Shown in pieces: positions 1-57,927 of a stretch of 64,000 nt of DNA; position 1 is the first letter of the stretch; every line of letters starts with the position of its first letter. The notes below the pieces were generated by a model, which ran no database searches, was not told the origin of the DNA, and worked only from the letters and a program-made list of their open reading frames with translations. This DNA comes from Syncephalis plumigaleata (lineage: Eukaryota > Zoopagomycota > Zoopagomycetes > Zoopagales > Piptocephalidaceae), in the NCBI GenBank assembly GCA_025201365.1, contig JAIXMF010000004.1:1178001-1242000 (forward strand), given 5' to 3'. The position numbers and the translations under genes were made by a program.

Positions 1-1143
1 GTAAGTCATCAATCTGACCGCAATGAATGCATGTACTAATAATATGGCACACGATCCATACGTATGTCCCGGTATAACAGTGTGTAAGTTGTCATTCCAT
101 TTATAAACTATGGTGTACTAATGCTAATTGACCCTCTATCCATACGTATATCTGCTTATAACAGTGTGTAGGTTGCCATTATGGTCGCAATGAATAGATG
201 TACTAACAATGATATCGCACATGATCCACATACGTCCTCGTATGATAGAAAGTAAGTCATTATTATGATTGTAATGAATGGATGTACTAATTACAACATG
301 GTACACGATTAACATATGCTCCTGTATGATAGCAAGTAAGTCATCATATGATTGTAATGGATGAATGAGTACTAATGGCAATATGACATATGATCCCCGT
401 GTGTTTATGCATTGTAGGACGTAAGTGATCATTCTGACTACAGTGAATGAATGCGCTAATTATGATATGGCACACAATTAATACATGTCTGTGTATGATA
501 GGGAGTAAGTCATTATTCTGGCTGTAATCTATGAATGTACTAATCACGTTATGACATACAATCCACCTATGCTCCTGTATGATAGAACGTAAGTTATCAT
601 TCTGACAGTAATGAATGAGTTACTAATCATAGCATGGCGCATGATTTTCTTATTATAGGACGTAAGCTATCATTGTAACTGTAACCTATGAGCGTACTAA
701 TTGTAACGTGGCACGTGATTTCCTGTATGAAAGATTGTAAGTTGACATCCCAATCGAAATGTATGATTGCTAACCGCAATATCGGCACATGTCCAACATA
801 TGTTTGCGTATAACAGGTTGTAAGTTATCATTCTGGTTATAATGAGTGAGATACTAATGATAATATGACACATGATATTCATACATTTGTGGATAACAGT
901 GCGTAAGTTACTATTCTCGATGATAACGTATAGGTGTACTAATGTTAACATGACATATGATCCATATACGCTTGTGTACGATAGCGTGTAAGTGAATATC
1001 GCTCACTGTAATGTATGAATGAGTACTAACTACTGTATGGGCATGATTCACGTATGTTTGCGTATAACAGTATGTAAGTTAGCATTCCAGTCGTCATCTA
1101 TAATACGCTAATCACAATACAATACCCATTAATTAAATGATAG
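1..1143 (+). repeat. Tandem array of fourteen homologous intron units (about 84-bp period)
   Basis: Each unit is one intron plus a 3-nt exon. Intron lengths from left to right are 80, 81, 81, 81, 82, 81, 81, 70, 72, 80, 80, 82, 83 and 70. The 5' site is GTAAGT in twelve units and GTAGGT or GTAAGC in the other two. The branch site is TACTAAT/TACTAAC in eleven, and CGCTAAT or TGCTAAC in three. All end in AG, mostly ATAG or ACAG. The bodies are clearly related (shared blocks such as TGTAATGAATG, GGCACATGAT, CTGTGTATGATAG) but have diverged, so signals are better kept than flanks. A shorter fifteenth intron (1153-1203, GTAAGT, TACTAAT, ACAG) is not clearly part of the repeat. The array probably continues to the left, because unit 1 starts at base 1. 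Confidence 0.9.
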
Positions 1144-1372
1144 CAATAAGCAGTAAGTAATACTTCAAATGATCATACTCATACTAATCCATTATGACTA
1201 CAGAACAAGACGAGGACATCATCAAGTAGATATTATAGGTATTCAAGTCAAGAATGTATTGGTGCAAGACCCTTTAGTGTCCACGCTATTCAAGTCATTA
1301 TTCCTTGATACAACAACAACAAGTATATCTACAAGTCCCTTCCGTCTATTCATCCATGGTCCTATCACATAA
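1..1372 (+). CDS. 3' part of a gene built of single-codon (3-nt) microexons; product unknown
   Basis: Seen: fifteen consecutive GT-AG introns. Between them lie exons of 3 nt at 81-83, 165-167, 249-251, 333-335, 418-420, 502-504, 586-588, 659-661, 734-736, 817-819, 900-902, 985-987 and 1071-1073, then 9 nt at 1144-1152, then a terminal exon from 1204. The triplets are TGT TGT AAA CAA GAC GGA AAC GAC ATT GTT TGC CGT TAT. Read in the frame of the terminal exon (introns in phase 2), the splice product is open and continues into an ORF with TRRGHHQVDIIGIQVKN and a stop at 1370-1372. Reading each exon as one codon is also open and gives a CCKQDGND-type peptide ending CAA TAA at 1147-1149. I favour the first reading because the terminal exon has an in-frame relative near 57.8 kb. 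The 5' part lies outside the window. No family was recognised. Transcription is not shown by the sequence. Confidence 0.55.
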
Positions 1373-1696: not shown

Positions 1697-4560
1697 ATGT
1701 CGCCGCAAAGAACCATACGATCAAAGTCTAGTTTGCCACGCAAACGACCGCTTAACACGGAAACTAAAACAAGTACGATAGCCGATTCTGCGGAGACACC
1801 AACGGAATCATCCTATCGTACGTTATTTCAAATGCTGAAGAAAGCCCGTAAATCTAAGCGTCAAGTGGCAGCTCACAGTAAAGAAAGCGAACTAGATGCA
1901 TCGAAGAATACGCAAATTGATGAATTAGAACAGCTATCATTGAATGAGAAGAGTGACCATGAGGAAGAGGAAGGAGAGGAAGAGACGTTTGACGATAGCG
2001 AGGAGAGTTCAGCTGTAACTGGTATTTCAGGTAGCGTCACATGCATATGCACAATCATAGCATTCTATGAAATAGTACTAATAAGATGATCCAGCATATG
2101 AAAAATACTATAGCGAAAGTCTATCCGGAAAAATGAGTGAACTCGCGACACTTATTGATGAGAAGCAATGGCGTTGCTTTACAGGTAGCAATAAAGCCAT
2201 GGGACAGATCGCTTACTACACACTGGATAGATCGTCGGTTGACGAGGAAGCAAAAGACGTGGATAATTTTGAGCAAGCTACATCGGCATTACTATCGCCC
2301 TCATCTACTATTTGTCAGAACTCATTTGGTATTAAACAGCGTTTACGGACTGCTTGGTCTAATAGAAAGACGACAAAGTCAAAATCATCTACTAGTGGTA
2401 AGTTTATAGTTATTACTTGACATTAATATATCATATTGATTTGTACATGTATATGTGGGTATGGTAGATTCAGTTACTCCAATTCAGGTGGATACATTAC
2501 AAAAACCACTTTTATCTATTATGCGACACTATCGGGATATAATGTATACCAATAGAGATGCTTCTCAGGCTGATAGCATTCGTGATATTTACACGTTGCA
2601 CCTGCTCGATCACATTTACCAAACTCGCGATTGTATCATAAAGAATAATACACGACTAGCCAAGAGTCAATCGGATGAATCGACGACTGGCGATGACATG
2701 GATGAAAAGGACGAGCTACGTGATCAAGGATTTACTCGACCAAAGGTATTGATAGTATTGCCGACGCGTAGCTCTGTTGTACGCCTAGTGGATGCCTTGA
2801 CTCGTCTCTCTGGATGCGATAGTATAGTAAGTTACTGCAGTGTTACTCATTCGAATGTATCGTAAACGATTAAACATGATCATGTTAGCAACAATATAAA
2901 CGATTTCAACAAGAATACGGCACTATGCAAGACTTTAATGTCGCACAGGATAATACATCCAAACCAGGTAAGTAACAGTAGAGTGATGGATTAACATGCA
3001 TAACAACTAATGACTATGTGTAGCGGATTATTTAAACTATTTCGCGGGTAATCCCGATGATCATTTCCGTTTGGGTATTCGTTTTACGCGTAAAACAATG
3101 AAATTATGCAGTGAATTCTACTCATCCGATATGATTGTGGCATCACCACTTGGATTACGTACGATTATTGGTGCACAAGGGTAAGAGGAACACACATTCA
3201 TATATATATGCATGTTGAAGTGCTCTAATTATCTTTTTGTAATAATCTATGATATTACAACATTCATTAATGTATAGAGAAAAGAAACGGGATTTCGACT
3301 TTTTATCCTCTATCGAGATACTCGTCATAGATCAAGCTGATAACTTTTTAATGCAAAACTGGGATCATATGGAGGTAAGGGATGAGATTAGCATATTAAA
3401 TACTAAATACTAGTACTAATAGATATGCTGTGTATTAGCATCTATTGAAACATGTTAATCTTATACCGCAAGAGTCACGCGATTGTGACTTTTCTCGAGT
3501 TAAGAATTGGTATTTGGATGGAAGGTAATAATGAAATCAATGAAGGTATACATATATACTTTGATAACCATTCTGTTAAATTAGAGCAAAATATCTACGT
3601 CAAACCCTAGTATTCTCTGATTACTTGACACCTGAATTGAATTCAGTATTTACCAAATACTGTAATAACATTAATGGAAAGTTGAAAATACGTCGTATGA
3701 ATGAAACGGGTACCATTAATGATGTGGCATTACCCATTCAACAGGTAAAGTGAATGATTATGATAATCTAACTGCAAGCATACTTATACTAATGACTATT
3801 TAGATATTCACTCGTATTGATTGTACTTCTATTGCTAAAGCAGCCGATCAACGATTTGAACATTTTAAAACAAAGGTACTGGTCATTATCTAGTACAAAT
3901 GATGAATACTTTATCTAATATTGTTATTGTTATTATGATAGGTGTTTCCTGCTTTACAACAATCAGCTGTGCAACAATCGCGTACCATGATATTCATTCC
4001 TTCATATTATGATTATGTACGCATTCGTAATTATTTCGATGAGATAGATGTTAATTTCGTAGATATTTGCGAGTAAGTAATGAGAGTACTAGTAGTTGTT
4101 CATCAAAAGATTTATAATTTACTTTGCTTATTTGTGTATGCTAGATACTCGGAACCAACCGACATTTCTCGATCACGTACCGCGTTCTTCCATGGAGATT
4201 GTGATTTCATGCTATACACGGAGCGTGTTCACTTTTATCACCGGTAAGCTAAGTTCATACTGAGTCTTATACATTATATAGACAACTAGGAGGATTAGTA
4301 CACCGAGTATTGACACAATAATTGATGATAGTTATCGTATACGTGGTGCACAGCATATCTTTTTTTATCAATTGCCGGAACATGCTCACTTTTATCCCGA
4401 GTTGCTTAGTGTATTATCAGACGCTGTTGATGGTCTACGAGATCTCACCATATCTGCACTTTATTCACGCTATGATCAATTACGCTTAGAGCGTATTGTG
4501 GGTACACAGCGTGCCATTCGTATGATCAAAGGAGAAAAGTCGGCCTATCTTTTCGCTTAA
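1697..4560 (+). CDS. UTP25: UTP25-like U3 snoRNP / small-subunit processome protein
   Basis: UTP25 (DEF in vertebrates) is a nucleolar factor needed for 18S rRNA maturation. Its fold resembles a DEAD helicase with degenerate motifs. Seen: a basic then acidic N-terminus, [26 protein letters not shown], the family block [35 protein letters not shown] with LMQNW after it, and a C-terminus with [20 protein letters not shown]. The gene has about ten exons; the first are 1697-2030, 2086-2397, 2468-2826 and 2889-2967, with GTAAGT-like donors and ACTAAT branch sites. The first ATG of exon 1 is taken as start because it precedes a typical lysine-rich nucleolar leader. The stop lies only 12 bp from the stop of the convergent SRP receptor gene. 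Confidence 0.93.
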
Positions 4561-57417: not shown

Positions 57418-57927
57418 ATGGATAGACTATTCAGTTATATCAATATCCGCCATCATCATCATCTCGGCTATAAATCGAGCACTTTGACACACTCACTTGC
57501 CATCTTCATACTCGCTCTTCTATTCTATTCTACTCTACTCTACTCTCGTTCTAGTCAACTTATCTGTCTATCCATTCCACTGGCCAACATCAACATAAAG
57601 TTCTCTGCCGTTGTCGCTCTCACTAGTCTGACCGCCATTGAAGCTAGCCCAATAGGATGCGTCGTCGTGCTGTTGTCGAACGCCGTGCTCCAAATCCTAA
57701 TCCTACTGTTCCTTTCGCTCATTCTTCCGACGTCTCTTAAGCGGACAAGACAAGGACATTATCAAGTAGATATTATAGGTATTCAAGTCAAGAATGGATT
57801 GGTGCAAGACCCTCATTTAGTGTCCATGCCATTCAAGTCTTTATTCCTTGGTACAACAACAAATATATCTACAAGATCATCATTCAATCATTTATTGAAT
57901 AAATATATGTCGTATTGTCCGCTATAA
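57418..57927 (+). CDS. ORF related to the terminal exon of the microexon gene; hydrophobic N-terminal part
   Basis: A single open frame of 169 codons. Seen: hydrophobic stretches (LAIFILALLFYSTLLYS and VLQILILLFLSLILP), then the shared segment KRTRQGHYQVDIIGIQVKN, FKSLFLGTTTNISTR and a stop at 57925-57927. The last 60 codons match the terminal exon at 1204-1372 in the same frame. Upstream of AAGCGGACAAG it has no microexon array. A pyrimidine-rich stretch at about 57510-57550 ending in TCTAG could be a splice acceptor, so the true start may lie in another exon. Function unknown. Confidence 0.4.
   Translation: MDRLFSYINIRHHHHLGYKSSTLTHSLAIFILALLFYSTLLYSRSSQLICLSIPLANINIKFSAVVALTSLTAIEASPIGCVVVLLSNAVLQILILLFLSLILPTSLKRTRQGHYQVDIIGIQVKNGLVQDPHLVSMPFKSLFLGTTTNISTRSSFNHLLNKYMSYCPL
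57740..57925 (+). repeat. Dispersed segment, copy B
   Basis: Match to 1204-1420, including the TTGAATAAATAT block. Relative to copy A it has one 3-nt insertion and one 3-nt deletion in the ORF, and lacks about 35 bases just before AATAAA. Most base differences change the amino acid, so either the protein evolves fast or the segment is not coding. Confidence 0.75.

Follow-up and report, generated by a model that had tools for sequence, protein, structure and literature searches.

Can a gene carry an intron at nearly every codon of its mature protein? The question is raised by the first 1,203 bases of the window, which here means the whole analysed stretch of 64,000 nucleotides from Syncephalis plumigaleata (G000:C318:1178001-1242000). 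In window 1-1203, a coding-blind parse finds 15 introns between thirteen exons of 3 nt and one exon of 9 nt, exactly the parts that a preliminary description had listed. That description also reported GTAAGT-like donors and AG acceptors throughout. This stands, with small corrections: the donor of intron 22 is GTAGGT and that of intron 28 is GTAAGC, acceptor AAG. Its claim of 'an intron in every codon' is supported by comparison with related sequences, namely a stop-free frame in 18 of 19 copies, cysteines, contiguous paralogs and two deposited models.

The parser scores the donor, the branch site and the acceptor. It is blind to coding and has no preference among exon lengths of up to 20 nt. 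Strict donors led to false long exons, most of which were removed by relaxed donors and by allowing GC-AG introns.

All features of the array lie on the forward strand. The first eight introns are at 1-80, 84-164, 168-248, 252-332, 336-417, 421-501, 505-585 and 589-658, and the other seven at 662-733, 737-816, 820-899, 903-984, 988-1070, 1074-1143 and 1153-1203. The intron at 1-80 (GTAAGT..CAG) is number 20 of 34. That window position 1 is a splice donor is an accident of where the window begins. The sequence just upstream (L009) ends in ..TATTATAG and then CAT, the exon before this donor.

The one-codon exons start with two times TGT (Cys, 81-83 and 165-167), the first and second halves of a CC pair. 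They continue with AAA (Lys, 249-251), CAA (Gln, 333-335), GAC (Asp, 418-420), GGA (Gly, 502-504), AAC (Asn, 586-588), GAC (Asp, 659-661), ATT (Ile, 734-736), GTT (Val, 817-819), TGC (Cys, 900-902, invariant among 16 aligned paralogs), CGT (Arg, 985-987) and TAT (Tyr, 1071-1073). The penultimate exon, CAATAAGCA (1144-1152), holds Gln, the stop TAA (1147-1149) and GCA; in 18 of 18 in-frame copies, the first in-frame stop is TAA. Because the stop lies at 1147-1149, the last intron (1153-1203) and the last exon (1204-1400) are 3' UTR. The last exon is conserved between copies, as seen in blastn matches, and its 3' end is approximate.

The gene as a whole, called C318b here, has its ATG at C318:1176317, which is 1,684 bases 5' of the window. 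Exon 1 is 94 nt long and codes for MKFSAVIAIAVAVVALTSLVAVEASPALVRR plus one base. After it come exons of 3, 3, 6 and 5 nt, then 28 exons of 3 nt, the 9-nt exon and the last exon. This means that the gene has 34 introns, and that 30 of its 33 internal exons are 3 nt long. The 5-nt exon shifts the phase from 1 to 0, and each later 3-nt exon is one codon. If the array is read in phase 1, as the signal peptide is, a stop appears inside the window; the upstream 5-nt exon resolved this.

The predicted precursor is 66 amino acids long, MKFSAVIAIAVAVVALTSLVAVEASPALVRRALTPKDCKPDETFYDGYGGGHCCKQDGNDIVCRYQ, and spliced mRNA is predicted to contain the joined-exon stretch GGACATTGTTGTAAACAAGACGGAAACGACATTGTTTGCCGTTATCAATAAGCA. 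Judging from the signal-like N-terminus and the cysteines, the product is probably secreted. Its precursor is perhaps cut after RR, and its four cysteines perhaps cross-linked. Syncephalis belongs to the Zoopagales and is described as mycoparasitic in PMC6784888, and a guess would be that the product acts towards the fungal host. A second complete copy, C318a, lies right upstream (L009:2565-6838). From the sequences compared here, it is very probable that the array in the window makes up the last two-fifths, at the 3' end, of a protein-coding gene whose mature product has a separate exon for almost every codon.

How common are such arrays in this genome? The signal-peptide exon has 180 genome matches with at most 3 mismatches, against 0 for the reversed control. 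The context of the boundary between exon 1 and intron 1 has 85 at the same threshold (control 0), so array-type copies may be roughly half of the family. The pattern CTAAY-N(15-45)-YAG-NNN-GTAAGT, in effect a whole one-codon exon with its flanking signals, has 2,101 matches in the 32.6-Mb genome versus 118 for the reversed control. A chance repeat was ruled out by this count, together with the stop-free frame and the contiguous paralogs.

Twenty complete array copies were fetched, and 19 of them were parsed; the one left out, L015, is split by a large insert. Of the 633 internal exons in these 19, 557 measure exactly 3 nt, and the median intron is 80 nt. The donor is GTAAGT in 515 of the 633 non-first introns, the branch site is YAYTAAY in 80% of introns, and the acceptors are TAG (428), CAG (180) and AAG (25), counts that concern the same signals the parser sought. 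With GT-AG (or GC-AG) ends and a branch-site consensus, the array introns look like ordinary U2-type introns. A GC-AG intron follows TGG (TGG, then GCAAGT) in three paralogs, L017, L018 and L021. These three donors were assigned manually once the blind parse was done, and one L017 acceptor was set by homology.

An ordinary gene lies next to the array, at window 1697-4560. Its parse gives 11 introns, 46-97 nt in length, and it looks like the ribosome-biogenesis factor UTP25. GTAAGT donors are found in 2 of these 11 introns, in an imprecise parse that leaves donor positions 3-6 unscored.

Three single arrays were noted as well. L028 (C223:612001-622000) has 69 introns and many near-identical units, and its second half consists of 3- and 6-nt exons for a tail rich in Arg and Pro. 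L029 and L030 (C1) are arrays for the simple peptides LKAKAKAKL and GLGGKGGK, again with some near-identical units. Several of P0139-P0149, mostly on short contigs, start with a similar signal peptide and perhaps come from a related species, and some of them continue into an apparent intron 1.

Are the triplets in fact codons? The signal-like peptide of exon 1 ends in ..LVRR, and the exon leaves the frame in phase 1. Next come two or three small exons and then a phase-setting exon of 2 or 5 nt, which is present in 18 of 19 copies and absent from L024. Past this exon, 517 of 557 exons in the 18 copies are 3 nt long. The frame that it sets runs through 589 codons in these copies with 0 stops before a TAA that ends the array or comes close to its end. 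Read in frame +2, the same bases give 70 stops in 571 codons, and in frame +1 they give 2 in 571. The chance of finding 0 stops is about 1e-13 if the kinship of the copies is ignored.

The spliced proteins also resemble each other. Sixteen were aligned, leaving out the near-duplicates L022 and L023 and the out-of-frame L024. All 16 share a hydrophobic signal-like N-terminus, R or RR, and a C-x-CC-x-C arrangement in which C38 and C63 never vary and C53-C54 hardly ever do; L014 is without the CC. For five family proteins, no Pfam family scored above the cut-off (sub-threshold matches were ignored), and a PDB profile search gave no family match. A profile search of the protein database listed 29 proteins, of which all the named ones are from Syncephalis plumigaleata.

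Codon usage is less helpful. In the 18 copies, Tyr is TAT 22 times and TAC 0 times, Gln is CAA 21 times and CAG 0 times, and Phe is TTT 18 times and TTC once. Asp is GAC 43 times and GAT 21 times, and GTA and GTG are absent. These choices are odd and unlike those of the ordinary gene nearby. They may stem in part from avoiding an extra AG or GT at exon edges. Given the weak correlation with the UTP25-like gene (rho 0.17, P 0.20), codon usage gives the coding reading no support.

A quite different reading is that a tandem repeat of about 84 bp merely mimics introns. The array would then be spliced out whole, or be untranscribed, and the triplets would be remnants. Tandem Repeats Finder does give a period of 84 bp at 189-629, and the introns within a gene are related, with a median identity of 56-80% depending on the gene. 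Such a repeat is nevertheless hard to reconcile with the 589 stop-free codons and the conserved cysteines and TAA. The contiguous paralogs, which equal the joined triplets, argue strongly against it, and deposited models contain the triplets as well. We hold this reading to be barely credible.

The contiguous paralogs were found through the joined junction of the last intron (TAAGCR plus the last exon), which has 27 sites in the genome with at most 2 mismatches, and 0 in the control. The intronless paralogs inspected were those at 20 of these 27 sites, together with L034, L036 and the copy that the window itself contains at 57.6 kb. In ten of the 20, one frame stays open from the signal peptide onwards and ends in a TAA that is at the junction or immediately before it. 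Another eight show a disturbed start or frame, or an early stop, and in the remaining two (L045, L046) the script detected no signal peptide.

The window's own intronless paralog is at 57592-57790, on the forward strand. Its TAAGCG followed by GACAAG resembles a joined last-intron junction, and its start and signal-peptide frame look degenerate. At 57670-57690 it reads CTGTTGTCGAACGCCGTGCTC, which is six exons of array L033 joined together. The coding-blind parse gives these exons as CTG, TTG, TCGAAC, GCC, GTG and CTC. They also stand contiguous in L043, L044, L052 and L057. Among all 720 orders of the six exons, the true one alone scores as high against the contiguous paralogs. As a class, the intronless copies (window 57592-57790, L038-L057) have the family ends and different, mostly cysteine-poor peptides, for example AVVERRAPNPNP and GMPAGMPMPPG, and several are degenerate.

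It could be that the triplets once coded, that the array copies are now mostly relics, and that the intronless class does the work. Some arrays are indeed damaged: L024 has lost its phase exon, L023 has a disturbed signal peptide and L015 carries its large insert. Moreover, among seven arrays outside the 19, L029, L030, L058 and L059 are open to TAA, and the parses of L031, L033 and L037 are not open. Still, 18 of 19 copies keep an open frame over 18-82 codons and the TAA, and L026 and L022 have 25 of 25 triplets unchanged versus a 4% difference in introns. The intronless class has decayed too, with 8 of 20 showing a disturbed signal-peptide frame. That the arrays are mostly relics is very unlikely.

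The coding reading of the arrays can also be examined in a second kind of array, L032 (C1:1411501-1418500, minus strand). It has 73 introns in this stretch and continues past its end, and the start of its protein is not signal-like. The coding-blind parse gives 72 exons for it, 62 of them 3 nt long, and no single frame is open throughout. The last 23 micro-exons of L032 align in order to a contiguous gene, L061 (C318:1455923), with a score of 62 versus a maximum of 48 in 1,000 shuffles of their order. At the protein level, in a second parse with in-frame stops forbidden, the score is 161 versus a maximum of 58 in 500 shuffles.

By eye, L061 has the start of its 3' UTR and the letters 5' of its start codon in common with the signal-peptide family. 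Because both flanks are shared, the L032/L061 type and the signal-peptide family are linked through their gene ends, with different proteins in between. The introns of L032 match those of two signal-peptide arrays at 68-90% identity over short stretches. The deposited model P0133 (BDF22DRAFT_742100, C318) seems to be a fusion of an L061-type gene and a gene of the signal-peptide family about 2 kb downstream.

Other deposited models contain parts of the predicted exon chains. P0126 (BDF22DRAFT_685769) holds NPINGSMDYVYWKPIVPGYWGPIN, which is 24 consecutive residues of the exon chain of L059. P0122 (BDF22DRAFT_685685) holds KTYEMHFENGKGCMFSNG, or 18 residues of the chain of L058. Compared with the parsed arrays, a few single exons are absent from both models, and the ends differ. 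In a six-frame genome search with these two models, the strong ones among the matches listed cover the signal peptide only, plus the tail of P0122; a few of the matches listed extend further, at low identity. A third model, P0124, fits array L011 in part only, and not in its tail.

These missing exons suggest another possibility, in which splicing generates diversity. Exons would be skipped freely and in frame, and one gene would give many peptides. Every 3-nt exon is symmetric, and P0122, P0124 and P0126 are without single exons that the parse includes, while their frame stays intact. The skips may, however, be artefacts of modelling or mapping, and that the arrays serve as such a generator seems to us rather doubtful.

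How do these genes change? Seven gene pairs were chosen by hand, and units were counted where introns match by more than 85%. In L018/L011, codon exons differ by 29.5% and introns by 3.9%, with 11 nonsynonymous and 0 synonymous codons. The corresponding values are 19% versus 5% for L019/L020, 11% versus 1.3% for L012/L014, and 31% versus 7% for C318b/L012. For C318b/L013, the difference is not significant (12.7% versus 6.1%, P 0.057). The same is true for L016/L024, where 1 of 6 codon-exon sites changed (P 0.42). In L026/L022, 0 of 75 codon sites changed, against 4% in introns.

A stricter sample consists of 69 unit pairs from nine gene pairs, in which both flanking introns are at least 93% identical. 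Here 215 of 10992 intron positions (2.0%) and 24 of 207 codon-exon positions (11.6%) differ, which means that the codon exons change about six times faster (Fisher 1.2e-11). Because the copies are related, such P values are too small. Fifteen codons changed, 11 of them nonsynonymously and four synonymously (three of these four are one event). All 6 Cys pairs are conserved.

It may also be that codon exons only seem fast, and that gene conversion homogenises the introns among copies, with no selection involved. The presence of similar introns in many copies gives room for conversion, and three of the seven pairs show no significant excess. On the other hand, conversion tracts that cover introns of about 80 bp should take the 3-nt exons along, and L018/L011 shows its 11 nonsynonymous and 0 synonymous changes beside introns that differ by 3.9%. 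On balance, conversion without selection looks unlikely as the explanation.

The arrays also appear to change in larger steps. Near-identical units or blocks recur within L012 (units 12-15 and 23-26), within L030 (adjacent GGT units) and within L028, and L014 is without a 12-unit block that L012 has. Units are gained and lost whole, and therefore the frame is kept. Together with the faster change of codon exons, this suggests codon-by-codon diversification. The arrays would evolve by substitution in codon exons, faster than in introns in most pairs, and by duplication and deletion of whole units of intron plus codon.

There is also a wider proposal, to which we give about equal weight for and against. 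Syncephalis plumigaleata would have a codon-modular class of genes, comprising dozens of genes and at least one that encodes a quite different protein. Related intron spacers of about 80 bp would let codons be duplicated, deleted, skipped or replaced in frame. A peptide could then evolve, and perhaps be expressed, residue by residue.

How might such a gene be spliced? The introns of about 80 nt would each be recognised singly across themselves, by intron definition. Recognition would use the near-consensus GTAAGT donors, the TACTAAY-like branch sites and the YAG acceptors. U1 pairs with the donor site, and just 9% of array codons have G as the last exon base in front of the donor. Since donors are near consensus and a preceding exon G is rare, U1 pairing would depend on intron bases. 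There is hardly room for two spliceosomes next to each other on a 3-nt exon, and adjacent introns are therefore probably removed one after the other. Phase-0 introns would be excised between whole codons up to the TAA, and the final intron from the 3' UTR.

Genes with many tiny exons are not new. Exons of the schistosome MEGs are 6-36 bp long, with several codons each, and those of the aphid bicycle genes also hold several codons each. In excerpts of PMC4350168, the MEGs are described as several fast-evolving families with secreted products, whose coding region is mostly made up of very small symmetric exons. The Syncephalis genes are similar in that their coding sequence is mostly small symmetric exons (517 of 557 are 3 nt), apart from a 94-nt first exon that is not small. 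The 16 spliced proteins have a conserved hydrophobic, signal-like N-terminus and may be secreted. Unlike in the MEGs, an exon here is one codon, the phase-0 introns lie between codons, and each copy has 17-45 such exons. The two are also from different kingdoms, and no sequence relation was seen in the Pfam search with five proteins or in the protein-database profile search.

The aphid bicycle genes are described in PMC9168663 as a large family under strong positive selection, with many small internal exons that share one phase (about 17 exons on average); their fast-evolving proteins are secreted. The Syncephalis arrays likewise have one phase after the phase-setting exon. It is phase 0 however, and not phase 2; the cysteine pattern is C..CC..C instead of the CYC motif, the protein is a different one, and the organism is a fungus and not an insect.

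Isolated tiny exons are known as well. Excerpts of PMC4674806 and PMC12940212 mention 1-nt exons in Arabidopsis APC11 and Fusarium CYP621A, single exons of 3 and 6 nt, and spliceosomes that include exons of 1-6 nt. Such exons are single ones in otherwise ordinary genes, unlike the runs of dozens seen here. '3-nt microexons' are mentioned in PMC7821500 and PMC8831610. Among the titles and abstract starts listed from the open-licence PMC literature, no report of runs of one-codon exons was found.

Two further comparisons come to mind, the first of which concerns the introns. Introners are near-identical introns inserted in many unrelated genes. The array introns are also related and present in many copies, but those examined are arranged in tandem, inside genes with common ends. 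The 5' consensus of one intron has 494 genome matches with at most 3 mismatches (control 0), whether in arrays or elsewhere. The second comparison is with conotoxin-type precursors, which have a conserved signal peptide and cysteines and a fast-changing mature region. Such precursors are not known to be split codon by codon. The family described here likewise has a conserved signal-like peptide and cysteines; no homology to any family was found by Pfam (five proteins) or by PDB profile. We class the Syncephalis arrays as an extreme kind of microexon gene, outside both the MEG and the bicycle families.

What does this mean? Exon size goes down to one codon here as the plan of a whole gene, and not as the curiosity of a single exon, which tests how spliceosomes define exons that offer next to no sequence. 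Such proteins can be hidden by gene prediction: the deposited models that were examined contain the exon chains only in part. The intron of 80 nt beside each codon is a ruler, by which the change of a single residue can be measured against its immediate surroundings. Finally, this genome has both contiguous and array versions of related proteins, which makes it possible to test how introns came to stand between all codons.
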